64,000 nt of DNA from positions 62,001-126,000 of the forward strand of contig BMVA01000009.1 of assembly GCA_014650475.1 (NCBI GenBank), given 5' to 3'. Each line of letters begins with the position of its first letter. Position 1 is the stretch's first letter. This DNA comes from Streptomyces albogriseolus (GTDB lineage Bacteria > Actinomycetota > Actinomycetes > Streptomycetales > Streptomycetaceae). Of this stretch, positions 25,313 through 49,472 are shown piece by piece. The position numbers were made by a program, and so were the translations under genes. Below the pieces are notes generated by a model. That model ran no database searches, was not told the DNA's origin, and worked only from the letters and a program-made list of their open reading frames with translations.

Positions 25313-26394
25313 TTCTCACCTTCCGCTGCGTTGTTGACGTACGGGGGTGTGGACCGGTCGTCCCAGCTGTCGACCCGGTACCGGCCGGACTCGTGGTGGA
25401 ACCAGTAGACGGAACTGAACCAGTTCCGCATGTTGCCGACGCAGGCGCGCACGGCGGCGCTCGTCTCCTTTCCGCCCACCGTCCCGTCGTCGAGCCGGTC
25501 GGCGAACCGTAATGCCTCCTGTTCCGCGTCCAGGAATTCGCTGATGCATTCCTCCACGCGGCGCCGTACGTCGGCGATCGCCTCTTCGAGGGTCATTCCC
25601 TCGTGGGTGACGAGACTGATGCCGAGATTGTGCACCTCGTTTCCGGCGATTTCCTTGGGCAGCGAGCAGAGGTCGTTGTACCAGGCGGCGAATTCCTGGC
25701 TGAGCAGCGCCGGTTTCCGATAGGCCGGGTTCTTCCGCACCGCGTCCGGGAGTTCATGTCCGGCGCTCGGTTCCAGAAGGTCGGTCCAGATCCAGTGCGC
25801 GAAGGTGAGGCGGCGCAGTTCGAGGTATTCCTCGACGGTCGGGACGATGCCCTCGGTGCGGTTGTGGAACTCCCGGTCGTACGCCTCGATCACGGTGTGG
25901 AAGTGGCGCGCGAACCGGGCGTTCCAGGTGTCCGGAAGGAAGGCGTAGAGCCGCCGCACGCTGTCGGCGAGGCCCGCGACCACGGGGTCCTGGTGACCCA
26001 GGTGGTCACCGGGGCGGTCGAGGGCGCTGTGCAGCAGGTCCTTCAGCCGCCGCCAGGCGTCGGGGCGGCCGTGCACGATGTCGCGGTCGTGACGGTCGTC
26101 CCAGACGAAGAACCAGGCGCTGTAGTCCGCTATCGCCTGGAGGACCTCGTCGGGCGCGCCTATGTAGTAGCCCGCCATGAGGTCCGTGTAGCACAGGCCG
26201 TCGGCATATGACTCCACCTTCTCCGGCGTCATGAGCCGCTTTTCGAGCAGCCATGCCCGGGTCTCCCTCTGGAGCTTCGGCCAATACGGGTGGAGTTGCC
26301 GGGGAAACGCCGCCTCGATCACCGGAAGAGACAGCGCCGGTGGAACTGCGATGGTGGTCGGTGCCGATGTGGTGCCGTGTGACAAAGCATGCAC
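25309..26394 (-). CDS. cyc1: epi-Isozizaene synthase (sesquiterpene cyclase)
   Basis: A 361-residue class I terpene synthase that cyclises farnesyl diphosphate to epi-isozizaene. The Mg-binding motif DDRHD lies in [14 protein letters not shown], and the NSE motif is NDLCSLPKE. The C-terminal RY motif region is [16 protein letters not shown]. Long stretches match the S. coelicolor enzyme as I recall it, including length. The GTG at 26394 follows AGAGGGGA; the upstream ATG at 26520 would add an unrelated extension. It is coupled to the P450. Confidence 0.96.
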
Positions 26395-26543
26395 GAACAA
26401 TCCCCTCTCAGCCGCCAGTTGAGCGCCCCGTCCCCCGAGCCGGGCGCACGCCGTGCGTATCCCCGCACCTCCATTCAGCACCACAAGCGACCGTTCTGGG
26501 AACGGATTTGCTTCTTTCACTACCTTGGGATGCGCACAGCCGA

Positions 26544-26580
26544 ACGGCGCCCGTCCGGGATGTGCCGGATCGGGCGCCGT
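26544..26580 (-). terminator. Terminator after the peptide deformylase gene
   Basis: Perfect 10-bp arms ACGGCGCCCG / CGGGCGCCGT (26544-26553, 26571-26580) lie about 30 bp past the def stop on the minus strand. Confidence 0.6.
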
Positions 26581-26611
26581 GAGCGAGGGGTGAAGTGAGC
26601 CGTGACGGCGG

Positions 26612-27262
26612 TCAGTCGTTGGCGACCACGGGGTAGCGCGGCTCGTTCTCGGCCATCTGCTTGAGGGCCGCCTTGCGCTCCCGCTTCGACAGCCGGTCGA
26701 TGTAGAGGTAGCCGTACAGGTGGTCCGTCTCGTGCTGGAGGCAGCGCGCGAAGTAGCCCGTTCCGCGTACCCGGATCGGGTTGCCCTTCTCGTCCTGACC
26801 GGTCACCTCGGCGTAGTCGGGCCGGGCCAGCGGCGCGTAGGCGGTGGGCACCGACAGACAGCCCTCGCTGCTGTCGTCCAGCCGGCGCCGCTCGGCGGGC
26901 AGTTCGACCAGCTCGGGGTTGCAGACCACGCCGACGTGGCGCACGCCCTCGTCGTCCGGGCAGTCGTAGACGAAGACCTTCAGGTCGACGCCGATCTGGT
27001 TGGCGGCCAGGCCCACGCCCTCGGCGGTGCGCTGGCTGGCGAACATGTCGGCGACCAGCTGCTGGAACTCCTCGCCGAAGTCCGTGACGTCCTTGCACTC
27101 CTTGTGCAGCACCGGGTTGCCGACCACGGTGATCGGGCGCGAGGTGCCGCGCTCCCGCCAGGCCGCCTCGCGCTTCTCGCAGTCCTCCGTGTCGATGACG
27201 TAGCCCTCGTCGTCGACGGGGAGCACGCCCGCGTGCTGCTGATCGGTGTCCTGCTGAGCCAT
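26612..27262 (-). CDS. def: Peptide deformylase
   Basis: A 216-residue metalloenzyme that removes the N-formyl group from nascent proteins. All three signatures are present: [10 protein letters not shown] (motif 1), EGCLSVP with the metal cysteine (motif 2) and QHETDHLYG with the two metal histidines (motif 3). It has an N-terminal extension of about 40 acidic residues before the core, as in one class of actinobacterial deformylases. ATG 27262 is well placed. Streptomycetes usually have several def genes. Confidence 0.95.
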
Positions 27263-38473: not shown

Positions 38474-39277
38474 ATGCCCGACTACCTCGACGACCTGCGT
38501 CTCGCCCATGTCCTCGCGGACGCCGCCGACGCCGCGACCATGGACCGGTTCAAGGCCCTCGACCTCAAGGTGGAGACCAAACCCGACATGACGCCGGTGA
38601 GCGAGGCGGACAAGAGGGCTGAGGAGCTCGTCCGCGGCCACCTCCAGCGCGCCCGCCCGCGCGACGCCGTCCTGGGCGAGGAGTACGGCGTGGAGGGCAC
38701 CGGCCCGCGCCGCTGGGTGATCGACCCGATCGACGGCACCAAGAACTACGTGCGCGGCGTGCCCGTGTGGGCCACGCTGATCGCGCTGATGGAGGCCGGC
38801 GGCGGGGGAGGCTTCGAGCCGGTCGTGGGCGTGGTGTCCGCGCCCGCCCTGGGCCGCCGCTGGTGGGCGGCGAAGGGCCACGGCGCCTACGCCGGGCGCA
38901 GCCTGTCCTCGGCCACCCGGCTCCAGGTCTCCGGCGTCTCGCGGATCTCCGACGCCTCCTTCGCCTACTCCTCGCTCACCGGCTGGGAGGAGCAGGGACG
39001 GCTGGACGGCTTCCTCGACCTCACCCGCGAGGTGTGGCGCACGCGCGCGTACGGCGACTTCTGGCCGTACATGATGGTCGCCGAGGGCTCGGTGGACATC
39101 TGCGCGGAGCCGGAGCTGTCGCTGTGGGACATGGCGGCCACGGCGATCGTGGTGACGGAGGCCGGCGGCGCCTTCACCGGCCTCGACGGCCGCCCGGGCC
39201 CGCACAGCGGCAACGCCGCCGCGTCGAACGGCCTGCTCCACGACGAGCTGCTGGGGTATCTCAACCAGCGGTACTGA
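38474..39277 (+). CDS. hisN: Histidinol-phosphatase (inositol monophosphatase family)
   Basis: A 267-residue Mg-dependent phosphatase of the IMPase fold, removing phosphate from histidinol-phosphate in histidine synthesis. Metal-site motifs are [20 protein letters not shown] and [18 protein letters not shown]. Its last four codons and stop make up the left attachment core of the downstream element. Integration therefore preserves the complete protein ending GYLNQRY. Confidence 0.93.
39264..39277. repeat. attL core (14 bp) at the 3' end of hisN
   Basis: ACCAGCGGTACTGA is identical to the copy at 49454-49467. It encodes the last residues and stop codon of hisN. Just inside, TACTGACGTCAGTA (39272-39285) is a perfect 14-bp palindrome. 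Confidence 0.8.
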
Positions 39278-39314
39278 CGTCAGTAGCGGCTTGACCTGCT
39301 CGTTCCCTCCCTTC

Positions 39315-40550
39315 TCAGTGCCCCTGGGCCGTCGTGGGGCCGTCATCGGTGGCCGGGCCGTCGTCAAAGGCCCGGTTCACCGCCTCGCGCGTCCGCTTCT
39401 CACTGCTCGGCATCAAGTGCGTGTACGTCCGCAGCGTGAACCCTGGATCGTGGTGGCCGAGGTACTCCGACAGGGCCTTGATGCTCTCGCCCGCGTCCAG
39501 GAGCACGGACGCGTAGAAGTGCCTCAGCGCGTGCATGCCGTTCTCCCTGCCACGCGGGATACCCGCACGGTCAAGGGCGGGCCGCCACGCCTTGTGGTTG
39601 AAGACGACGCGGTTCACCGCGCGTCCCTCTGCGTTGCGGAAAAGGACCGGCACCGCGACCGGGGAGCCGTCGACCGACCGCCACGGCAGCGACACAGGCA
39701 TGGGCGGGTACTTCTCGATGTGGGCCTCGAGCGACCGCATGACGCTTTCGGGTAGCGGGACCGTGCGCGTCTTGCCACCCTTGGGCAACGCGAACACCTG
39801 TCGTCCGGCGATGAGCTTCACCTGGCGGACGACGTGAACGACTCCTTGGACGAAGTCCACGTCATCGGCGGCCAGGCCGAACACCTCGCCTTGCCGCATG
39901 CCGCACCCGCCGGCCAGATCCACCGTGGCCCGGTACCGCTCCGGGAGCTCCGCCCGGACAGCGAGCACGCGCTCAGGCCGCCACGGCACGACGCGCCGCG
40001 GCTCCGCCTTGGGTGCCTTCACGGACGACGAACGGCACGGATTATGCGGGATCAACCGGTCGTCAACAGCCGCCGCGAGCATCGCGCTGAGGTTCGCGAA
40101 GATGACCCGTTGGTAGGCGGGGGCCACTCCCCCGTCGTGGAGCTTCCGCAGCCACTCACGCACGTGCGTCGGCCTCAGCGAGTCGAGCGAGCGACTACCC
40201 AGGTGCGGCAGGACATGCAGTCGAATCCGCTGCTCGGTGCTCACGTAGGTGCCGGGGTCCATGGTGAGCGACGCCAACCACCGTTCGGCGTGCTGCCGCA
40301 CGGTGAGGCGTCCGGCGCGCGGGTCGATGTACTGCCCGCGCGTCATGTCCGCCTCAATGGCGCTCAGCCACTTCTCGGCAAGGCGCTTCTGTCCGTCGGG
40401 GAAGCTCTTGGACTTCTCGGTGCCGTCGGGGCCGATGTACCGGGCCCGGTAGCGCAAGCCACTGCCGTGCCGGTCGGTCTTGACGCGAGCGGCCTTGCCG
40501 TCAGCGTTGGTTTCGGTCTTGTACCAGCGGTCTTGGATGTGGCCAGCCAT
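39315..40550 (-). CDS. int: Site-specific tyrosine recombinase (integrase)
   Basis: A 411-residue phage-type integrase. The N-terminal part has an AP2-like arm-binding segment (SGLRYRARYIGPDGTEKSKSF) and a SAM-like core-binding domain (about 75-165). The catalytic domain shows the first Arg in GCGMRQGEVFGL, HALRHFYASVLLDAG (HxLR), and the nucleophile Tyr in FTLRTYTHL. Start ATG 40550 follows GAAGGGA. It is the element gene nearest attL. Confidence 0.95.
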   Translation of the reverse strand: MAGHIQDRWYKTETNADGKAARVKTDRHGSGLRYRARYIGPDGTEKSKSFPDGQKRLAEKWLSAIEADMTRGQYIDPRAGRLTVRQHAERWLASLTMDPGTYVSTEQRIRLHVLPHLGSRSLDSLRPTHVREWLRKLHDGGVAPAYQRVIFANLSAMLAAAVDDRLIPHNPCRSSSVKAPKAEPRRVVPWRPERVLAVRAELPERYRATVDLAGGCGMRQGEVFGLAADDVDFVQGVVHVVRQVKLIAGRQVFALPKGGKTRTVPLPESVMRSLEAHIEKYPPMPVSLPWRSVDGSPVAVPVLFRNAEGRAVNRVVFNHKAWRPALDRAGIPRGRENGMHALRHFYASVLLDAGESIKALSEYLGHHDPGFTLRTYTHLMPSSEKRTREAVNRAFDDGPATDDGPTTAQGH

Positions 40551-40589
40551 GGGGCCGGGGTCCCTTCTCTGGGATGTTCTGGTGCGGTG

Positions 40590-40970
40590 CCTCAGGGAGG
40601 CAGCGACAGGGGGTGTCGGGTGGCTTCTGGAAGGGGATTTCGGGGGTGCTGAGGGTGTGCCTCCCTGCCTCCCTGAGAGGCTGTTTCCGCTGATCAGGGC
40701 GAGGGAGGCGGGCCAGGGAGGCGGTCAGGGAGTTCTCCCTGTCTCCCTGGGCCGAGGCAGTGCTCCTCCCTGTCGCGCGCGGCGCTTTCCAGGCCGGCGG
40801 GGGAGGCAACGGCAGGGGCCCCGAGTGCTCTGCCGGGCCGGATTTCGGGGTGGTCCGGCGGCGCCTCCCCGCCTCCTCGAAGTGCCGTTCACGCTGCTCA
40901 GCGGGGGGAGTTCGGGCCGGGGAGGCGGAGGGGGAGTTCTCCCCGCCTCCCCGGCCCGGCGTCGGGTCCC
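40590..40970. repeat. Two degenerate tandem copies of a GGGAGGC-rich hairpin region
   Basis: The 438-bp gap between the integrase and HTH genes has two related blocks (about 40640-40755 and 40850-40965). Each combines GCCTCCC doublets, a CTCAG segment, GGGAGGC doublets and a GGGAG-TT-CTCCC dyad. A 201-codon open frame runs through the region but its composition follows the repeats, so it is not called as a gene. Confidence 0.6.
40913..40958 (-). terminator. Strong hairpin downstream of the excisionase-like gene
   Basis: A perfect 16-bp stem (40913-40928 with 40943-40958) with a 14-nt loop starts 31 bp past the HTH gene stop. It probably separates the HTH transcript from integrase expression. 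Confidence 0.6.
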
Positions 40971-40988
40971 TCCCCGCCGGCCGGTGCG

Positions 40989-41228
40989 TCAAGCTGCGTC
41001 GTCGAGGGCGCCCTGGTCGGTCACCCAGGCACGTACGGCGGCGGGGTCGTAGCGCAGGTACCGGCCGACGCGAAAGCCGGGCGGGCCGATGCGCTTGCGG
41101 CGCCACTGGTAGACGGTTTCGACGCTCGGGAGGCTGAACATGGTGACCAGGTCCTCGGGGGTCAGGTAGCGGTCCGGGAGGCCGCCGCGCAGGATCGCGC
41201 GCGGGTCGGTGGGCTCGGTGGTGACCAT
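40989..41228 (-). CDS. xis: Excisionase-like helix-turn-helix protein
   Basis: A 79-residue MerR/excisionase-like protein. The HTH_17 pattern is visible: YLTPEDLVTMFSLPSVETVYQWRRKRIGPPGFRVGRYLRY. Such proteins next to an integrase usually direct excision or regulate int. The ATG at 41228 lies 79 bp from the nearest member of an iteron-like cluster. The longer open frame upstream (to 41441) runs through that repeat cluster and is unlikely to be coding. Confidence 0.85.
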   Translation of the reverse strand: MVTTEPTDPRAILRGGLPDRYLTPEDLVTMFSLPSVETVYQWRRKRIGPPGFRVGRYLRYDPAAVRAWVTDQGALDDAA

Positions 41229-41306
41229 GCGGTGGTGACTCCTCGTGTCCGTCGGGCGGTGCGTGGGAGTGGTGCCGGTGGCCGTCCTGGAGAGTTGGTG
41301 TATTTC

Positions 41307-41418
41307 AGCGTCCGCAGCGTCCCAGCGTCCGCGCGGCCGTATTCGGGCAGGCCAGGGTGGGTGTTGGGTGCGGACGCTAGTGCGGACGCTGCGGACGCTG
41401 GACGGCTGGAGCGTCCGC
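41307..41418. repeat. Iteron-like cluster A: six copies of GCGGACGCT
   Basis: Exact 9-mers begin at 41370, 41382 and 41391 (forward) and at 41307, 41324 and 41410 (reverse, AGCGTCCGC), with a near-match at 41316. A seventh exact copy lies at 41552 in the 3' end of the ATPase gene. The cluster is noncoding, between the ATPase gene and xis. Confidence 0.8.
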
Positions 41419-41478
41419 AGCCTGGGACGTGTCCGGGCCACTGATGTGCGGCCCGGCCCGGCGGGGGTTCCGGCTACG

Positions 41479-43104
41479 TCAGGTCTGGTCAGGCAGTGTT
41501 CTGCCCTGTCCGATGGGTGCCACGTCCGGCCAGAGCGCGCCTTGGTCAGGTGCGGACGCTGACGCGTCGCCGTCGGGTGCGCGGGACAGGATCAGCAGCT
41601 TGTGCCGGGTCCGGTCACGGCTACGCTGCGTGTCGTCCACGGTGATCCCGATGGACCGCAACAGCGGTGCGAGCCGCTTCACGCGCCCGCCAGCACGGGT
41701 GGCGTCCTTGGGCCAGTTCGGTGGCCGGACCGGGCCTGGCACGGGCAGCGTGTCGAGCAACTGCCCGGCCGTGCCCTGCCACGTTCCCGCCTGGTCGACC
41801 AGGGCCGCGATGGCCATGGCGAACGGGTCGCCTTCCAGCGCATCCGTGGCGACGTTCGCAGACGTCGCCAGGTAGTCGCCCAGGGTGTTCCAGCCCTGTG
41901 TCTGGTCGACAGCCGCGAGCACGCGCGCGAAGTCGGCCATGCGCGGCATGGCCTCCAGCCGCACCGCCGGCAGCACGGCGAGCGCGCATGCCAGCACATC
42001 GAACAGAGCCCCGAGTACCGCCGGGCGGACCGCCTCGAAGGTGGCGTCCAACTCCTCCTCGGAGCGACGGCGGCGGGAGTCGATGAGTTGCAAGTCGAGC
42101 AGCAGCACGCGTTCAGCCAGGTCTCCGGCGAGAGCTCCCGCGTCGATCGTGGTCATGGCCAACACCCGCTTGAAGGTGAGGACCACGACGTCGTCATCGG
42201 TGTACAAGGCGCGGTCGACCACGCCGTCACCCGTCACCGCCTTGCACAGGGTGTCCGACAGCCACGGTGGGATCGTGCTCACGTTGTCCAGGCACAGCGC
42301 CCAAGAGCTGAACGCCTGCCGGGACCATGCCTTCTCGTCCCGCGGTTGGCTGCGTTTGGCGGCCGGGGACGGGTCGATGAGGTTGATGAACATCTGTGCG
42401 GCCTTGGACTTGCCCGTGCCCTGCTCGCCCTTGCAGACCACCGCCGGGTGTGGGATGTCAGGAATCCACGCCGCTACAAGCCATGCCACAAGCTGATGGA
42501 ACGCGGACTCGTCCATGTTCAGCAGCGCGTGCAACTTGGCCAGGCCGTCACCGTCCAACACCGGTTCAGGCATCGGAGCCATGGCACCGGAGCGGCGGAA
42601 GAGCACCGGGGAGCGTTCTACGACCTGCCAGCCGAGACCGGACACCACGACCGCGCGGCCGTCGGCACTGCCGAGGTCGACCACGATGGCGCCGTCCGGG
42701 GCCCGCCCGACGCGCAGGTTCACCGGCACCGGGTCGTTGTCCTCGGCAATGCCTTCCAGCACGGTCATCGCGTCCGCAAGCGCGGACTGTGAGGCCACCT
42801 CGCCCGGGTAGGCGTCCGCAAACCGTCGCGCCAGACGCTGGCGTAGTCCGGCCTTGCCCCTCAGCGGCACGGCGACGTTCGGGCCGTCCAGGGCGACCGC
42901 ATACGGGCGGCCGTCGGTGGACATGACGAACCGGTACTCCTCACGCGCCATGGCCACGATCCGCGCGGCGGCCGGCGGCTGCTTGCCCCCGTCATCCGGC
43001 TTGCCGTGGGCCGGTCGACTCGTGCCTCGATCAGTCGGGCCGACCCGACTGGTGCCGGGTCGGTTGTGACCGTTGACGGGTCGGTCGGATCGGGTTGCCG
43101 TCAT
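41479..43104 (-). CDS. P-loop ATPase, helicase-like (phage/ICE ATP-binding protein)
   Basis: A 541-residue protein. Walker A is GEQGTGKSKAA (residues 226-236). A Walker B-like WALCLDNVS follows (268-276), then an RVLAMTTID segment and LAERVLLLDLQL with a likely arginine finger, an order reminiscent of D5/SF3-type replicative helicases. No primase-polymerase motif is seen in the N-terminal 200 residues, and the first 45 are low-complexity. ATG 43104 overlaps the HNH stop (ATGA). It may be the element's replication ATPase, but this is inference. Confidence 0.75.
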   Translation of the reverse strand: MTATRSDRPVNGHNRPGTSRVGPTDRGTSRPAHGKPDDGGKQPPAAARIVAMAREEYRFVMSTDGRPYAVALDGPNVAVPLRGKAGLRQRLARRFADAYPGEVASQSALADAMTVLEGIAEDNDPVPVNLRVGRAPDGAIVVDLGSADGRAVVVSGLGWQVVERSPVLFRRSGAMAPMPEPVLDGDGLAKLHALLNMDESAFHQLVAWLVAAWIPDIPHPAVVCKGEQGTGKSKAAQMFINLIDPSPAAKRSQPRDEKAWSRQAFSSWALCLDNVSTIPPWLSDTLCKAVTGDGVVDRALYTDDDVVVLTFKRVLAMTTIDAGALAGDLAERVLLLDLQLIDSRRRRSEEELDATFEAVRPAVLGALFDVLACALAVLPAVRLEAMPRMADFARVLAAVDQTQGWNTLGDYLATSANVATDALEGDPFAMAIAALVDQAGTWQGTAGQLLDTLPVPGPVRPPNWPKDATRAGGRVKRLAPLLRSIGITVDDTQRSRDRTRHKLLILSRAPDGDASASAPDQGALWPDVAPIGQGRTLPDQT

Positions 43105-43649
43105 GCGGGGACCGCCTCTCCGGAGTGGCCCGCGCACACCCGCACCGATCGGGGCGTGCGTAGACAGTCGGGCCGCATGGCCGACCGACGGTCGGGGCCG
43201 TGCGGGGTCGATCCGTGCAGGCTGCGGGTCGACCGTGCGCCAGTCGGGTCGGCCGATCCGATGGCCGCCAGTCGGGGCGTGACGTGGGGTGTGACGCAGG
43301 TCGTCACGCTGGTGAGCGTCGTCTCGTGAACGTGCGCGAGTCGAGCCAACAGCAGCACGTCGACCGGGCGAATGGTCGGCCTCGTCGGGTCGGCCCACCC
43401 CAGCAGCATCAGGGCGAGCGAGAGCGGGACTCGGTCCGCCTTGGCCTGGTTGCAGTCGACGCACGCCAGCATCAGCGACGTGACCGACCACGACCGCCAT
43501 AGCGAGCACGGCACGATGTGATCAAGGGTGGCTTCGCTCAGGTCGGCGAACGGGCGGCAGCAGTAGGCACAGCGCTGCCCGTGGCGGCGCGCGAGCTGTT
43601 CCTTGCGCACGCGCCGCCGCGCGGAGTTGAGCGGGTGTCCGTGCCTCAT
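43101..43649 (-). CDS. HNH endonuclease
   Basis: A 182-residue protein with a compact HNH domain in residues 20-72. The zinc pairs are CAYC and CVDC, with DHIVPCSLW (first His) and CNQAKADR (Asn and the final region). The C-terminal ~90 residues are Arg/Thr/Pro-rich without a recognised domain. It overlaps both neighbours by ATGA. HNH nucleases in small elements can assist packaging, homing or defence; context does not decide which. Confidence 0.85.
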   Translation of the reverse strand: MRHGHPLNSARRRVRKEQLARRHGQRCAYCCRPFADLSEATLDHIVPCSLWRSWSVTSLMLACVDCNQAKADRVPLSLALMLLGWADPTRPTIRPVDVLLLARLAHVHETTLTSVTTCVTPHVTPRLAAIGSADPTGARSTRSLHGSTPHGPDRRSAMRPDCLRTPRSVRVCAGHSGEAVPA

Positions 43650-44737
43650 GCCGCCTGCTCCATGTCGTCCTGGTTGCGGGTGACGGAGTAGCCGTACAGG
43701 CCGTTGGACTCGATCAGGCCCTCACCGCGCAGCAAGGCCCAGGCGTTGTCGATCGTGCGGCTACCGACCGCGAAGCGCGCCATGAGGTCCACCCGACGCG
43801 GCAAGCGGTCACCAGGCCGCATAGCCTTGATGTCCTCCCGCAGCGCGTCGGCGACCTGACCAAACTTCGAGTTCGCCCGCCGGCCGGTGGCCCTGGGCTT
43901 GCGTGCGGCGCGGGGAGTAGACACACACCGGATAACCGCGGCCACCGCGTCATGAGACAGCCCCAGTCGCTCGCTGATCTCCCGCTTGCTCAGCCCCTGC
44001 TCCTTGAGCAGCAACGCCTGACGCTCCGACGACTCCAGCCTCAGCAGCGCCTCACGCCGTGCCGGACTCAGCTCCGACAGCGCCCGCCGCTCCCACTCGG
44101 GCAGCGACCCCAACGCGACCGGTTCGCGCGAGAGCTCCGGATTGTCGATCTGGAGCCGGAGCACGGCCGCCCTGGCACGCAGCACGGCTGCCGTGTCACC
44201 GCAGCCGAGGTGCTCGGCCATGGAACGCGGGTCCAGCCCGTCCAGCATCAACAGCAAGGCCGCGCGCTCCTGCTCCGGCAGCGCCTCGACCATCGCGGCC
44301 AGGTAGGCGGGCAGCTCGACCAGGGCACACCCGCTCGGCATCATCGGGCAGAGCCAGTTGCAGGTCACCGGGTCGGTAAAATCCACGACCTTCTCACCAG
44401 TGGAGTACAGCTTGAAGTGGCGGCTGATCTCCTGCCTCACCCGGTAGAACAGCAGGCCGCCCATGTTCTCCACCGACGCCTCACCCAGCGGACCGCGGGC
44501 GCCTTCACGGGCCACCTGCACCCACATCCCCTGGGCGATGTCCTCAGCGAGCGTCCACACGTCCCCGCCCACGCGGTCCCACTTCCTGAGCTGCGAGTAC
44601 GCGTAGCGCACCAGCCGGGACCCGTACTCCTCGTACAGCGAAGCCAGCAGGTCCGACTGCTCTGCCGTTAACGGCACGATTTCGCCCACACGCGTCTTGC
44701 GCTGGCTGGCCGTCCGTTCCGTGATGGTTCCAGGCAT
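43646..44737 (-). CDS. Sigma-70-like / GntR-type winged-helix regulator
   Basis: A 363-residue DNA-binding protein, first gene of the core operon. Residues about 25-115 resemble sigma region 2 (LASLYEEYGSRLVRYAYSQL, LAEDIAQGMWVQV, FYRVRQEISRHF). Sigma-4-like HTHs appear around PEQERAALLLMLDGLDPRSMAEHLG and ESSERQALLLKEQGLSKREISERLGLS. The C-terminal 70 residues look like a GntR wHTH (FGQVADALREDIKAMRPGDRLP...ALLRGEGLIES). A C-P-rich loop CNWLCPMMPSGC sits centrally. The combination is unusual; it may be the element's transcription or replication initiator. Confidence 0.65.
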   Translation of the reverse strand: MPGTITERTASQRKTRVGEIVPLTAEQSDLLASLYEEYGSRLVRYAYSQLRKWDRVGGDVWTLAEDIAQGMWVQVAREGARGPLGEASVENMGGLLFYRVRQEISRHFKLYSTGEKVVDFTDPVTCNWLCPMMPSGCALVELPAYLAAMVEALPEQERAALLLMLDGLDPRSMAEHLGCGDTAAVLRARAAVLRLQIDNPELSREPVALGSLPEWERRALSELSPARREALLRLESSERQALLLKEQGLSKREISERLGLSHDAVAAVIRCVSTPRAARKPRATGRRANSKFGQVADALREDIKAMRPGDRLPRRVDLMARFAVGSRTIDNAWALLRGEGLIESNGLYGYSVTRNQDDMEQAA

Positions 44738-44891
44738 GATTGGAGTGCCCCTTCGAGGGTCAGGGAGCGGCTATCTGCTTGGCGGTAGGGAGCCGCTCCT
44801 TGCTTTGCCCTGGGGCTGACCAGGGCTTTTCGAGGTTCAGCGCACGCCGGACAGGCGGTCTCCGATCGAGCCATCCGACCGGCGGGCACAT

Positions 44892-44919
44892 CCCTAAGGT
44901 TCCCTAGGGCACCCTAGGG
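44892..44919. promoter_or_regulatory. Operator-like array of CCCTAGGG boxes
   Basis: CCCTAAGG (44892), CCCTAGGG (44902) and CCCTAGGG (44912) occur at exact 10-bp spacing, between the divergent sigma-like and GntR genes. One helical turn per box suggests co-operative repressor binding, most simply by the adjacent GntR protein. Confidence 0.7.
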
Positions 44920-44971
44920 TGTCAAGGGGTACAGTAGGCATGGCGTCCACTCAGACAAGGGAGCTACGGAG

Positions 44972-45730
44972 ATGTCGGAGCAGGCCGACAATCGAGCGCC
45001 ATACGCGCAGATTGCCGCCCACTATGCGGAGCTGATCACGTCCGGCGAACTGGTGCCGGGCTCGCTCCTGCCGAGCATCAAGAACCTCGCGCAGGAGTGG
45101 AAAGTCAGCACCGCGACCGCCGAAAAGGCGCTGCGGAAGCTGCGCACCGAAGGGTTGGTCAGGGGAATTCACGGCATCGGAACAGAGGTGCTGGACCGCC
45201 CCTCCCCCATGTCGTCCGGCTCTCAGCGCCAGGACCGGGGCCGCCGCAGCGGGTCAAGTTGGGGATCCGGTGAGCGGTCCGACTCCCACCAGGCCGCCGT
45301 AGTGCCGGCGCCTGCGGATGTGGCGGGGGCACTGGACATCGCGCCCGGTTCCGAAGTGATCAGGCGACGCCGGGTGTACCGCGACCGGCACGGAATCGTC
45401 GCGCACTCCACGTCATGGATCCCCGTGCGGTACGGACGGTTGATCCCGCAGTTGATGGAGAGCGACCGCTTGACCGGTGGGACGTCGCTACAGCTCATCG
45501 CGCAGGCCACGGGCCACCCGATCACTCACCGGATCGACACCGCGTCGGCACGCCTCCTTACGCCTGAGGATGCGCGACTCCTGGAGTTGGACCCCGCGCA
45601 CCCCCCAGCGGATCCCGTAGTCGTGATGACAGCGAAGTTCGTTGACAGTGAGAGCAACGTGGTGGAGTACGGCGTTGACCTCGGGGGCCCCGGTCGTACG
45701 TGGCGCACGGAATCGGAAGTCACCCCGTGA
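44972..45730 (+). CDS. GntR-family regulator with UTRA domain (KorSA-like)
   Basis: A 252-residue regulator. The wHTH occupies residues 8-75 (YAQIAAHYAELITSGELVPGSLLPSIKNLAQEWKVS...). A Ser/Arg-rich linker (75-110) is followed by a UTRA effector domain (GSEVIRRRRVYRDRHGIVAHSTSWIPV). In Streptomyces integrative elements such as pSAM2, a GntR protein (KorSA) keeps transfer and replication genes off, so that role is plausible here. Its GTGA junction with the kinase gene implies coupling. ATG 44972 follows AAGGGAG. Confidence 0.88.
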   Translation: MSEQADNRAPYAQIAAHYAELITSGELVPGSLLPSIKNLAQEWKVSTATAEKALRKLRTEGLVRGIHGIGTEVLDRPSPMSSGSQRQDRGRRSGSSWGSGERSDSHQAAVVPAPADVAGALDIAPGSEVIRRRRVYRDRHGIVAHSTSWIPVRYGRLIPQLMESDRLTGGTSLQLIAQATGHPITHRIDTASARLLTPEDARLLELDPAHPPADPVVVMTAKFVDSESNVVEYGVDLGGPGRTWRTESEVTP

Positions 45731-46290
45731 CGGCCGCTGGCCACGTGGCCCGGCCGTCCTGCGTCCTCATGGCGGGACTGCCCGGCTCAGGCAAGACGAC
45801 GCTTTCCCGCGCCCTCACGGCCCGCGGTTTCCTCCGGCTCTGCCCCGACGAAGAGATGTTCCGCCGGCATGGCGTCTACGGGGTCGACTTTCCCCGTGGC
45901 GTCTTCCCGACCCTCGAACGCCCGGTCCTCGAAGAGACTGCCCTGGAGCTCAGCGAGCAACTGCGGGCCGGACATGACGTAGTGGTGGACCACGGCTTTT
46001 GGACGCCGGGAGACCGCGCTCACTGGCGGTCGATCGCGGCTGAAGCGGGGGCAATCACGCTGCTCGTCTACCTAGAAGCAAGCCACGAGGAACTGTGGGC
46101 CCGTGTCAGCCAGCGAAATGCGCGCCATGCGGCCGACCCAAACTCGATCTACTTCGCCGAAAGCGACTTGCTCCGCTACCGCACCCGATTCGTCCCTCCG
46201 GAGCCAGACGAAGCACACCTTGTGTACAACGGCGATCCGGAGTCGGTCCTGAAGGCACTGAACGAGGTTGCCCAGCAAAGCAAGGGATAG
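45727..46290 (+). CDS. AAA_33-type P-loop kinase
   Basis: A 187-residue nucleotide kinase-like protein. Walker A is AGLPGSGKTT (residues 16-25). LCPDEEMFRRHGVYG and VVDHGFWTPGDR resemble the acceptor and Walker B regions of polynucleotide- or zeta-toxin-like kinases, and a LYLEA-type lid region with VSQRNARH follows. GTG start overlaps the GntR stop. Possible roles are resistance, toxin or modification of a small molecule; none is proven. Confidence 0.8.
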   Translation: MTAAGHVARPSCVLMAGLPGSGKTTLSRALTARGFLRLCPDEEMFRRHGVYGVDFPRGVFPTLERPVLEETALELSEQLRAGHDVVVDHGFWTPGDRAHWRSIAAEAGAITLLVYLEASHEELWARVSQRNARHAADPNSIYFAESDLLRYRTRFVPPEPDEAHLVYNGDPESVLKALNEVAQQSKG

Positions 46291-46294
46291 AAGG

Positions 46295-46342
46295 TACGGC
46301 CTACGGCCGCGCGACCCTTGGCAGCTCGCTACGCTCGCGCGC
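46295..46342. repeat. Imperfect inverted repeat, left arm
   Basis: A 45-nt arm containing CCTTGGCAGCTCGCTACGCT is the reverse complement, with about six mismatches, of 46846-46891. Together they flank the 46.3-46.9 kb noncoding region that also holds iteron cluster B. Confidence 0.65.
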
Positions 46343-46388
46343 GGCAATGCCCGGAAGTCCCGACGCTCGTCACGCTCTTCCGTGCGGC

Positions 46389-46439
46389 ACACCGAAGAGG
46401 AGCACCCCCGCCCGGCGTCGGGGTGCTCCTCTTCGGTGT
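46389..46439. terminator. Very strong terminator after the GntR-kinase pair
   Basis: A perfect 20-bp stem (46389-46408 with 46420-46439, arm ACACCGAAGAGGAGCACCCC) with an 11-nt loop, 98 bp past the kinase stop. Confidence 0.85.
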
Positions 46440-46451
46440 TTCGGAGCGCTC

Positions 46452-46628
46452 AGCGTCCGCACCCCTCCCCCTTCTAAGAGTTTCCTTGACCTGCGAAGAC
46501 ACGCTCTTAGCAGCGGAACGTGACCGGACGTTGCGGACGCTAGCGGACGCTAAACAGTTTGTTTAGCGTCCGCAGGAACAGTGCAGGCCAAAAGGGGTAA
46601 GGGATGCCCGGCGGACGCTGCGGACGCT
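46452..46628. repeat. Iteron-like cluster B: six copies of GCGGACGCT with a 31-bp dyad
   Basis: Exact copies start at 46533, 46543, 46611 and 46620 (forward) and 46452 and 46565 (reverse). The pair at 46543/46565 extends to a perfect 13-bp inverted repeat (46543-46555 with 46561-46573), spaced by AGTTT. No gene occupies 46291-46976; the long frames there are composition artefacts. Confidence 0.8.
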
Positions 46629-46845
46629 GTCTTCTCTCAACTCTCTAGGAGAGGAGAGGGAAGAACGCTCTTCAGCTGGGTCTGGAGCGCAGCACGAACG
46701 GCTGTCCGCCGCCTTCTGGAGAGCCGTAGTGCCTTCCAAGCGGGGGCGGGCCCGATTGCCCTCGCCCCTTCCTGCCGCCTCCCTTTTGGAAGGCCACACA
46801 CACATGCACGAGGCTCGCAGCCTCGCACCCCGGACGGGTGGCGGA

Positions 46846-46891
46846 CACGCGAGCGCAGCGAGCCGCCAAGGGACGCGCGGTCGCAGGCCGC
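46846..46891. repeat. Imperfect inverted repeat, right arm
   Basis: Partner of 46295-46342. It includes AGCGAGCCGCCAAGGGACGC. Nearby GCCTTCCAA (46731-46739) and TTGGAAGGC (46786-46794) form a second, shorter inverted pair. Confidence 0.65.
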
Positions 46892-46976
46892 TCCTTCTTG
46901 CTCTTTCTCCCCCGATGCGCCGGCACCGCGCCGCCACTGAAAGAGCTCAGTGGCCACTCTGAAAGACCTAAATGAA

Positions 46977-48383
46977 TCATTCAGTTTCCACGGGGACGTC
47001 AGTCCCGTCGTACACTTGCCCATCAATGGCGTCTACACGCCATGTGTCAGCGTTTACGGACGCGGTCGAATCTGCCTCTTCCTCTGCATTTGTGGGGCTT
47101 GTTACACCCACCAGCCATTCCGGTCGCCACGTGCCGTCTCTATAGACGGCCTTGAGCGTGAACGCCTCGAAATTGAAGTCTCCTGGAGTGCTACCTCCAT
47201 GTGCCCTGGATCGAGCCACCATTGCTTCTTGGACGTTTTCTTCAGCTTGCCTGGCATCCAGCTTTGGCGTTTCAAGCTTCACATGCGTCGGACCGAGTGT
47301 CACATCCACCTGCGACACCTGGCCGACTCTGTCGATTTGAACGTCCAACATTCTTGGCATGAGGACCTTATCGTCGAGCCATCGCCAGTTGGTCATCCAT
47401 CCCAGTTCCGCCTTCTCGCCGACTGCGAAAGTTTGATGTATTGACGCTCCTTCGGCCCATGGGTAGCGTTCACGCATGTAGGACTGTGCAATCTTAAATG
47501 CCTCCTGCTCATTGACAGGTTTCTTCGCCCCCGTTACGGGATAGCCCATGACGTAAGATCGATCGCTGTCTTCCAGGAGTACGTTCAAGTGCTTCTTGTC
47601 CGGCCATGAAAGGGTGCCGTTAGCGAAAGCTTCCGGGTGCTCCTTTGCCGGACTGAGCAGCGTGAAGGCAATATTTGTGCACGGTGCTCCCACGCACGGC
47701 TGCTCATACACGTGCCCCAGTTCATAACGGTCGCCGAATGCCTGCTGCACGGCCATTTCCACGGCCTGACGTTGCGACGTTGTTGCCGCTGACAGGCCGG
47801 TGCCATCAATGTTGGTGTATGTCAGCATCGGGCGAACAGCGGTGCCTATTAGGAGAACTCCGGCCGCAACGATAAGCGACACCTTGGCGCCACCCTGCCA
47901 ATCTACCGATCGCCGGATCGCCATAAATGCCGTTGCAGCGGCTAGTCCCAGAAGACCGCCGAGGATATTCATTTCCGCATCTGAGCTATCACAGACACGC
48001 CCAAGACCATCTACCGTTGCCTGGGTGAACTCGATCGCCAAGGGTAGGGTCACGACGCCAACCAAGGTTGGCAGTGGTCGACGGGTGGCAAGCAGGCCGA
48101 ACATGCCAAGGGGTACGGTCATCGCGAGATTCCACAAGCCTTGGGTGGTGTGAAATGGCTCGGCAAAGTTATGGTTGAGGACACATTGGTTGCTTGCTGG
48201 TCCGCCACCCATAAAGGTGACTCCAAGCACGCCGCTGAGAGCGGCTACCAGGAAACCCCACCAGATGCCATAAGAGCTGCCGAGACGGCGAGCCAAGAAC
48301 CATGCAGATCCGCCGAAGGCACCAGCGGCCAGTAGGCATGCGATTAGGTAGCCGTAGTGGTCTTGGAAAGCTGCGGTAAACAC
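46977..48383 (-). CDS. VanZ-like membrane protein with extracytoplasmic domain
   Basis: A 468-residue protein. The first ~190 residues hold about six hydrophobic segments with a VanZ-family pattern (LPLAIEFTQATVDGLGRVCDSSDAEMNILGGLLG). A soluble C-terminal ~270 residues follows the last segment and is probably outside the cell. That part has a conserved-looking cysteine pair (EQPCVGAPC) and PepSY-like spacing around EQEAFKIAQSYMRERYPW, but I do not assign a family. GTG 48383 has an AAGGAAC site. Base composition is visibly less GC-rich than the chromosome, pointing to transfer. Confidence 0.75.
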   Translation of the reverse strand: MFTAAFQDHYGYLIACLLAAGAFGGSAWFLARRLGSSYGIWWGFLVAALSGVLGVTFMGGGPASNQCVLNHNFAEPFHTTQGLWNLAMTVPLGMFGLLATRRPLPTLVGVVTLPLAIEFTQATVDGLGRVCDSSDAEMNILGGLLGLAAATAFMAIRRSVDWQGGAKVSLIVAAGVLLIGTAVRPMLTYTNIDGTGLSAATTSQRQAVEMAVQQAFGDRYELGHVYEQPCVGAPCTNIAFTLLSPAKEHPEAFANGTLSWPDKKHLNVLLEDSDRSYVMGYPVTGAKKPVNEQEAFKIAQSYMRERYPWAEGASIHQTFAVGEKAELGWMTNWRWLDDKVLMPRMLDVQIDRVGQVSQVDVTLGPTHVKLETPKLDARQAEENVQEAMVARSRAHGGSTPGDFNFEAFTLKAVYRDGTWRPEWLVGVTSPTNAEEEADSTASVNADTWRVDAIDGQVYDGTDVPVETE

Positions 48384-48420
48384 GGACTCGTTCCTTGACG
48401 GTTGGACGCACGAGGGAGAC

Positions 48421-48450
48421 CAGGGGCCCGCCATGAGAGACGGGCCCCTG
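48421..48450. terminator. Terminator between the two cargo genes
   Basis: A perfect 10-bp stem CAGGGGCCCG/CGGGCCCCTG with a 10-nt loop lies 11 bp after the secreted-protein stop (minus strand). Confidence 0.75.
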
Positions 48451-48461
48451 GTGTTGGTGGT

Positions 48462-48887
48462 TCAGCAGTGCGCAGAAGGCGTCTGGAAAGTGCCGCCGCT
48501 GTAGTTCAGCAGTCCGGTGCTGGAGGAGCAGTAGTAGTCCCCCGTCTTGTTCCAGGTCTTCCCCTTGGTCTGGCCCGAAGCGATGGAGAAGTACGAGCTG
48601 TAGACGGTGCTGCTGCCCAATCCGTATCCGACGCGGACGCTGACTGTGGAACCGCCGGTCTTGGAGTAGTTGGTGGTGATGTTGGTGCTGGTGCCGGTTC
48701 CGTACGACTTCCAGTGGGCGAGGACGCCATTGGACAGAGAGGTGCATCGCTTCATGGGCGTGTTGTCGGCCATGTAGCCAGACGAGTCGCAGTAGTAACC
48801 CGCAGCCGAGGCGGTGGGCGCCCCGAACAGGACGGTGCCAGCCGCAATGGCGCAGGCGATGGTCACGGCTTGGATCTTGGTACGCAT
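48462..48887 (-). CDS. Small secreted protein, unknown function
   Basis: A 141-residue protein with a clear Sec signal peptide (MRTKIQAVTIACAIAAGTVL, then GAPTASAAG, cleavage near residue 29). The mature part is rich in Ser, Thr, Tyr and Gly with four cysteines (YYCDSSG, KRCTSL, YYCSSS, C-terminal C), suggesting two disulfides and a beta-rich fold. ATG 48887 is preferred because it begins the signal peptide. It resembles short actinobacterial secreted proteins of no known role. Confidence 0.8.
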   Translation of the reverse strand: MRTKIQAVTIACAIAAGTVLFGAPTASAAGYYCDSSGYMADNTPMKRCTSLSNGVLAHWKSYGTGTSTNITTNYSKTGGSTVSVRVGYGLGSSTVYSSYFSIASGQTKGKTWNKTGDYYCSSSTGLLNYSGGTFQTPSAHC

Positions 48888-48974
48888 GGAAGGCCAATCT
48901 GTCGAGTGCATGACATGCGGAGGGCAAAGGTTCCCCTCACGCGGTGCGCACTTATCCAAGCAGCCCGTAGTCAC

Positions 48975-49443
48975 GGTGTGAAGATCATTTGAGGTTCTTC
49001 TGAGCTACATCCAGTAGCGGAGGCGTTGCCCACGGTGTGGAGCCCTTCGGCGGCCGGACAAAGACGGGCACTGTGATTCGGTGCTCAGTCATGCGGCAGC
49101 CGAAGGTGCACCCCGCCGATGACACTGGCTTGCACCTTCTGCCGGAGCGAGAGCGAACATCTAGAGCGGTGGTCAGCGCCGGCGCTGTACAGCTCGGAAG
49201 TACGGCAACCGCCACGGCCGCCACCAAGCGTTGCCAGCCCCAGGCGACCGGCTGACGTCCTCAGCCGACCGCAACGACCTCCCCGCCCGTAGTTCGCATC
49301 GAGGGGCGCACTCCGACACCCCCCGCTCGGGCCGTCCCTGGGCCGTCCGAGGGCGGCCGACGACAACAGGTGACGACAGACATGAACAGCATCAGCCCGG
49401 CTCTCCGGTGGGATGCGGAGGAACGCCGCACCCCACCGGAGAG
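48975..49443. other. Right-end noncoding region of the element
   Basis: Several open frames cross this stretch but none has a ribosome site with sensible codon use or a recognised domain. No iteron copies or tRNA were seen. It runs from the secreted-protein promoter to the right attachment dyad. Confidence 0.5.
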
Positions 49444-49472
49444 CCGGTTCAATACCAGCGGTACTGAACCGG
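49444..49472. repeat. attR core within a 29-bp dyad
   Basis: The core ACCAGCGGTACTGA (49454-49467) sits in a near-perfect palindrome with outer arms CCGGTTCA/TGAACCGG and inner arms TACC/GGTA around AGC; only one base pair is mismatched. This layout fits two inverted integrase core sites around a short overlap. Confidence 0.75.

Follow-up and report, generated by a model that had tools for sequence, protein, structure and literature searches.

Two arrays of a 9 bp repeat as candidate iterons of the Rep protein in an integrated island of Streptomyces albogriseolus

Replication of the plasmid pWTY27 is described as requiring repA, repB, and a 300 bp iteron region next to repA; RepA binds this region in vitro and leaves footprints there, and repB is given as a predicted primase/polymerase (PMC3583192). 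Binding of the pFP11 Rep to iterons is cited in the same paper (PMC3583192). In staphylococcal pathogenicity islands (SaPIs), the helicase gene is described as being followed immediately by the origin, which consists of short repeats (PMC7581432). We analyzed a stretch of 64,000 bp from Streptomyces albogriseolus (contig BMVA01000009.1, positions 62,001 to 126,000), referred to here as the window, in which two clusters of the 9-mer GCGGACGCT, arrays A and B, sit in a 10.2 kb island (39264-49467) that encodes a tyrosine integrase and has the hisN 3' end as its insertion site. Comparison of related islands makes it likely that these repeats serve as iterons for an initiator encoded by the island itself, Rep, which would bind them and start replication.

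The rep gene (41479-43104, minus strand; 541 aa) lies beside array A, which overlaps its 3' end, and encodes a D5/SF3-type helicase-like initiator, as judged from its predicted fold, its top PDB match (SaPI5), and its homologues on plasmids, pFP11 included. The pFP11 open reading frame (ORF) at 25356-27077, which we infer from its place beside the array to be the published RepA, showed 40.9% identity over 85% of Rep (E = 5e-78) and is followed downstream by GTGCGTCCCT-type repeats, with one copy of the box 2 motif (described below) among them. pWTY27, likened by description, also has its iteron region adjacent to the rep gene. Like the SaPIs, the window island is a small integrase island with origin-like repeats downstream of a D5/SF3-like Rep, whose nearest solved fold is the SaPI5 primase-helicase; unlike them, it has two arrays, and no phage-interference or packaging gene was recognized among the window proteins scanned with Pfam and PHROGs. 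The nearest description is that of a non-conjugative integrated replicon with a pFP11/SaPI-like initiator.

Two clusters of a 9 bp repeat

An earlier note on this DNA had reported 13 exact copies of GCGGACGCT, and all 13 were found at the positions it listed. Array A (41307-41560) contains seven copies in the order - - + + + - + with spacings of 17, 46, 12, 9, 19, and 142 bp. Array B (46452-46628) contains six exact copies and a two-mismatch copy at 46524; the exact copies and this one run in the order -, then + + +, -, + +, and the spacings are 72, 9, 10, 22, 46, and 9 bp. The whole window carries 18 copies on both strands, compared with 2.69 ± 1.55 in 100 dinucleotide shuffles; the five further copies are at 1158, 6540, 23570, 48633, and 59706, that at 48633 lying inside the island. 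The 8.07 Mb genome holds 241 copies, and the reversed control pattern occurs 193 times, indicating that the 9-mer itself is hardly enriched and that its clustering is what stands out. At the genome rate, the Poisson tails were ~3e-19 for seven copies in 254 bp and ~3e-17 for six copies in 177 bp. All five direct pairs within 30 bp in the genome fell in the two clusters (reversed control, one), as did four of the five places with inverted pairs within 30 bp, searched in the convergent (+ then -) orientation (control, none), the remaining place lying elsewhere. Chance clustering was ruled out by these window, genome, and pair counts together with the Poisson tails. The earlier note had named a genome-wide density count as a check on its candidate iteron system; equal density was not found elsewhere, and the count did not refute the proposal.

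The same note held that all but one copy are noncoding. This is correct if xis starts near 41228, in which case only the copy at 41552, in rep, is coding, and incorrect if an upstream GTG start is used, when the frame 40989-41441 covers six more copies. The xis ORF ends before the array in 8 of 11 relatives and extends into it in L043, L046, and L047.

The layout of both arrays is shared by the window island and these 11 relatives: A reads - 17 - 46 + 12 + 9 + 19 - ~141 +, B reads - ~70 + 9 + 10 + 22 - 46 + 9 +, and each array consists of two outer iteron groups and a central group. The exceptions among the 12 islands were copies differing by one base, copies missing in several, and L044, which is degenerate. 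A second set of 19 loci yielded calls for the two arrays together in 16; L083 stops short of B, as L100 probably does, and array A of L099 (the same record as L044) fell below the calling threshold. For stacking, 26 loci were kept, the repeat records L092, L096, L097, and L099 being dropped together with L083, whose Rep is identical to that of the window; the template fitted within 14 mismatches at B in 25 of these loci and at A in 22.

Rep as the likely reader of the repeats

The repeats had been attributed in the earlier note to an element-encoded initiator or regulator, with the sigma-like/winged helix-turn-helix, helix-turn-helix (HTH), and GntR proteins named as candidates. An initiator is indeed the likely binder, and none of the three named is supported. 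High-identity gntR and kinase homologues were present in 7 of 12 islands, yet array B was present in 12 of 12; the islands lacking these homologues include ones with different regulators. In nine relatives whose Rep is 58-62% identical (L054-L062), an array is kept beside rep in each. It is a single array, mostly of GGGGACGCT. No Xis, sigma-like, or kinase homologue was found in these nine loci, a GntR homologue was found in L059 only (36% identity, ~8 kb from rep), and the other window proteins matched at 26-46% identity or not at all. Because rep and the array persist while the other genes vary, the likely reader of the repeats is Rep, which the earlier note had not named, rather than the GntR, HTH, or sigma-like proteins.

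The wider distribution of the two was examined in 392 same-genus genomes, one per species. Rep copies of at least 67% identity numbered 19 in 18 genomes, including the window's own, and 12 copies of 58-63% were found in 11 other genomes. Array B accompanied all 19 close Reps, 17 being detected on the same contig by the B signature (up to two mismatches allowed; reversed control, no matches) and two by inspection (L139 has altered spacing), and the B pattern had no match in the 11 genomes having only a 58-63% Rep. Relatives were found through Rep, arrays beside unrelated proteins being reachable only by the B pattern search; gene calls in relatives followed our own ORF rules, and L131 and L132 were examined with short flanks only. 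Four of the 21 B-pattern matches had no close Rep alongside. One of them, L137, is a contig of short length on which hnh, gntR, and kinase genes are present; L134-L136 are solitary B-type arrays that share the sequence around the array, with an integrase fragment in L134, and look like deletion relics of islands.

Lambda-type origins lie inside the initiator gene, and L054-L062 resemble them in that the rep frame stays open across the array and ends in a Cys-rich tail (CxxC...CxxC or similar) in 9 of 9 loci. The repeats are thus coding in these relatives, a possible further constraint on them. The window rep differs from the lambda type in that it stops within the array region.

The Rep model (predicted local distance difference test score of 78.5, built from 27 sequences) was read by us, from its predicted secondary structure, as an N-terminal alpha/beta part, an ATPase core, and a winged-helix-like C-terminus at about 427-508. 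Walker motifs were present in the alignment as GEQGTGKS and LCLDN. The predicted fold had 168 PDB matches at E ≤ 0.001, headed by the SaPI5 primase-helicase (E = 4e-10), NrS-1, and D5-type proteins, with modest template-modeling scores of about 0.2-0.57; the best viral model match was the helicase of Microbacterium phage Zeta1847, and no clear repeats were seen beside that gene. At the sequence level, Rep had no PDB match at E up to 1 and no Pfam, PHROGs, or NCBIfam match at the limits used, RepSA being absent from these profile sets. Rep may belong to the RepPP (SCO4618-like) kind named in PMC3218068. A protein 37% identical to Rep is encoded by the Methanothrix harundinacea plasmid pH6Ac (L012), which has six tandem 11 bp repeats (943-1008) upstream of the gene.

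Covariation among the relatives suggests that the C-terminal wing is the end of Rep that reads the repeats. The wing motif agreed with the majority iteron in 13 of 13 relatives of the 58-63% group, where the wing and iteron classes were drawn by eye after both had been seen and the table counted 9-mers of one preset form. Seven GPKP(K/L)xQRL wings occurred with an iteron having G at position 2 (the L057 repeats being mixed), two TPDAKRKRL wings with GCGGACGCT, two GPAPKRQR wings with GTGGACGCT, and two Qx(N/D)GNRSRL wings with GCGGGTGCT. The wing/iteron types were scattered over the helicase-core tree, with at least about six switches as counted by eye. L143 (GCGG) grouped with L054/L055 (GGGG), L060 (GGGG) with L062 (GGGT), and L061 (GGGG) with L132 (GTGG); support for the L061/L132 fork is weak (90/66), some other forks are likewise open, and the L033 sequence is fragmentary, covering 49% of the columns.

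Several observations weigh against Rep as the reader and the repeats as its iterons. The match is not one to one, since several different wings occur with GCGGACGCT, and it is not clean in the close family, where L044 and L048 have mostly GTGGACGCT and L051 half, with wings near those of the GCGGACGCT loci. L054 and L143 are 83-97% identical along most of rep and 65-80% identical from the wing through the array; as the wing adjoins the array, this drop implies that recombination linkage explains part of the covariation. Linkage alone could keep wing and iteron together. No clear array was found in L035-L041 (35-39% identity; the L037 record is incomplete), and the GCGTC core count, a blunt test, exceeded all 100 shuffles in only 10 of 33 loci. 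Moreover, pFP11, pWTY27, L054, L060, and L143 have a Prim-Pol gene, and none was recognized in the window island (no PF09250 match among the eight predicted window proteins scanned; no six-frame search of the island was made).

The drop in identity at the wing was less sharp in the other two pairs compared. Judging from the L054/L143 alignment, there is probably at least one instance in which recombination moved wing and array together as a cassette. The occurrence of the same wing/iteron pairings in different backgrounds favors a functional match, without amounting to proof. Linkage also explains less well why islands with two arrays have matching iterons at A and B, which are 5 kb apart.

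Possible roles of the two arrays

Accessory motifs recur around the iterons (counted over 25 loci, with L044 excluded for A and L100 for B). A flank box of the GAGAGTTG motif (consensus GTCCTaGAGAGTTG) adjoins array A at 41285-41306, and its inverted counterpart CAACTCTCTAGGA adjoins array B at 46629-46650, so that the two boxes point outward from the arrays. A loose pattern picked up this CTCTCTAG flank box next to B in 24 of 25 loci; next to A, the pattern used picked it up in 14 of 25. Box 2 (GCAGGCCA; consensus GCAGGTCA) lies in the 46 bp spacer of A (41347-41354, plus strand; 19 of 25 loci) and of B (46583-46590, plus strand; 21 of 25) and, inverted as TGACCTGC, in the left spacer of B (46487-46494, minus strand; 20 of 25). 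In five of 25 loci, the window not among them, GCAGGTCA or a near form was also present in the long spacer of A. The left part of B (46474-46510) shows a conserved CTAAGAG...CTCTTAG inverted repeat around TTGACCTGC.

We propose that, once the island is excised, several Rep molecules would use their C-terminal wings to bind the GCGGACGCT copies and would form rings on the arrays; the DNA would then be opened and replicated in the manner of a plasmid, an action likened to that of the SaPI Rep at its downstream origin. Of the two options raised in the earlier note, two origins or two co-regulated promoters, the former fits in that two origin-like arrays exist.

As a first choice, held with about even confidence, array B would be the opening site or a second origin; it is preferred for its mostly AT-rich palindrome within inverted iterons and its low duplex stability. 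The perfect 13 bp inverted repeat around AGTTT that had been noticed in B was located at 46543-46573, where it makes up a 31 bp perfect inverted repeat with an AT-rich core. The 13 bp center (AAACAnTTTGTTT-like) had an AT fraction of 0.46-0.92 in 25 loci, compared with 0.20-0.40 for the matching A spacer in 22 loci. Among 19 distinct B 31-mers, iteron pairs 3-7 and 9 were intact throughout, pairs 1, 2, and 8 were intact in 15, 14, and 18, respectively, and the only compensated change in the core (G-C for A-T at pair 12) was present in two. These counts lend modest support to a selected palindrome in B beyond the iterons themselves. Within the window, B ranked near the top of the island for duplex instability (95th to 99.9th percentile, depending on the size of the scanning window), and A lay at the 38th to 73rd percentile. 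On the other side, the palindrome is not always AT-rich (0.46 in L101), its core pairs 10-13 form in 16 to 18 of the 19 sequences and are broken in one to three, and the cargo region holds stretches as unstable as B.

Array A would be the ancestral array for Rep. Its place between rep and xis would now also let it tie xis-int expression to the level of Rep, or hold down copy number through pairing with B. That it acts as a Rep sensor at xis is a tentative suggestion. We are more doubtful of a combined arrangement in which A and B are halves of a split origin, the Rep rings on them being joined by DNA looping; B would open, A would sense Rep and drive or block xis-int, excision and replication would thereby be coupled, and across the wider family wing plus array would form an exchangeable specificity cassette.

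The alternative that survives best keeps Rep as the binder of both arrays and makes A the sole origin, B being an incompatibility, handcuffing, or segregation site that limits copy number. It is a real possibility, to which we give rather less than an even chance. The 58-62% relatives have their one array where A is, at the 3' end of rep, pFP11-type plasmids also carry repeats 3' of rep, and B has no shared neighbor gene; however, B fits the template better than A (25 vs 22 of 26 loci) and holds both the palindrome and the less stable DNA.

A reading of the clusters as operator sites at two co-regulated promoters, bound by a regulator of the island (GntR, sigma-like HTH, or XRE-type), is improbable. 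Array A does lie upstream of xis and B before the cargo, with the CTCTCTAG box directed outward from each. However, the regulator genes vary among islands while the arrays stay, the L059 homologue is the only one of such a regulator in the nine 58-62% relatives, no sigma-70-like site was found in either cluster by a scan that covers that promoter type only, and no ORF beside B is common to all 12 islands. The promoter option of the earlier note is accordingly weak. Less probable again is that array B is a transfer locus (clt) for the FtsK-type translocase of another plasmid, acting in trans. In the 20 kb around rep, or as much of it as the contigs cover (10 kb in G178), none of the 12 genomes gave an FtsK/SpoIIIE translocase match (PF01580), and the clt of pWTY27 is described as a short-repeat region (PMC3583192). 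Yet B shares its iteron and a similar layout with the rep-linked array A. Finally, integrases use repeated arm sites and array A adjoins xis, but it is most unlikely that the repeats are arm or accessory sites of integrase/Xis recombination, given that the arrays are 2.0 and 2.8 kb from the att repeats, that they hold where the integrase is 53-64% identical and no hisN flank is present (80-85% in the hisN-site loci L049 and L053), and that an array persists in the 58-62% relatives, of which seven of nine have an integrase of 26-34% identity and two of nine gave no integrase match.

The island and its relatives

The island is bounded by a 14 nt direct repeat, the left att copy ACCAGCGGTACTGA at the hisN 3' end (39264-39277, plus strand) and the right copy at 49454-49467 (plus strand). 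In the att repeat search this pair was one of three 14 nt matches and is not significant alone. A 14 nt match at a tRNA-Met gene (39276 and 54531, on the 3' side of the tRNA) was also considered and is probably due to chance; the hisN repeat is preferred because L049 and L053 occupy the same hisN site, with repeats of 13 and 14 nt, and L065 has the uninterrupted site, in which hisN runs directly on to a CBS gene. Of 11 hisN loci from the same genus, nine have the CBS gene within ~200 bp after hisN; no CBS match was obtained in L070 and L071.

Beside the left end are genes for the tyrosine integrase (39315-40550, minus strand; PF00589, E = 1.7e-19) and the Xis-like HTH_17 protein (40989-41228, minus strand; PF12728, 1.6e-07; phrog_66 excisionase). 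On the other side of rep lie an HNH endonuclease gene (43101-43649, minus strand; PF14279/PF01844), which adjoins rep in the close family and has a homologous ORF in 12 of 12 islands, and a gene for a regulator with sigma region 4 and a GntR-type HTH (43646-44737, minus strand; PF08281, PF00392). The HNH gene, shared with 11 relatives, takes the rep-adjacent place of the Prim-Pol gene in L054 and L060, where PF09250 lies upstream of rep (2 of 2 tested). Genes for a GntR-UTRA regulator (44972-45730, plus strand; PF00392, PF07702) and an AAA_33 kinase-like ATPase (45700-46290, plus strand; PF13671, 4.3e-22) follow. The inverted repeat search placed a long G+C-rich hairpin (46389-46439) in the interval between the kinase gene and array B; it is perhaps a terminator without a T tail, and the terminator scan did not list it. 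The cargo comprises a VanZ-like membrane protein (46977-48434, minus strand; PF04892) and a small protein (48462-48974, minus strand) that had no family match and in which an apparent secretion signal was recognized by eye. An Rfam search gave four matches only, all far under the gathering scores. The HNH, Xis-like, and kinase proteins showed low-scoring similarities to defense-system models; in the cargo of a related island (L043, 10918-12315), a product with RAMA and CBS domains matched the candidate defense model PDC-S14 (E = 3.6e-14).

The island was also compared with actinomycete integrative and conjugative elements (AICEs), whose features were taken from PMC3218068. It resembles AICEs of the RepPP type in its tyrosine integrase, Xis-like protein, att repeats, replication module, and GntR regulator, and differs from them in that it has no FtsK/SpoIIIE gene near rep and no RepAM (DUF3631) or Prim-Pol match among the window proteins scanned. 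As no translocase lies near rep and neither Prim-Pol nor RepAM was recognized, it is not a canonical AICE. On a contig with rep, the nearest FtsK/SpoIIIE match was at a distance of ~41 kb (G023). By contrast with the window island, Prim-Pol and FtsK genes lie nearby in pFP11 and in two plasmids related to it; the window island also differs from pFP11 and pWTY27 in being integrated and in having two arrays.

No description of twin arrays or of a wing-iteron match was found in our searches of the open-licence literature, outside which most subscription papers lie. The analysis offers a replication anatomy for a widespread Streptomyces island family, with a close Rep in 18 of 392 genomes and two arrays here compared with one in the relatives examined beyond the close family. 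As no transfer gene was recognized, the question is raised of how such islands spread. The natural wing/iteron pairs make the DNA-recognition code of a D5/SF3-type initiator directly testable and, if the proposal is true, exchange of the cassette would give related islands separate, non-interfering replication identities.

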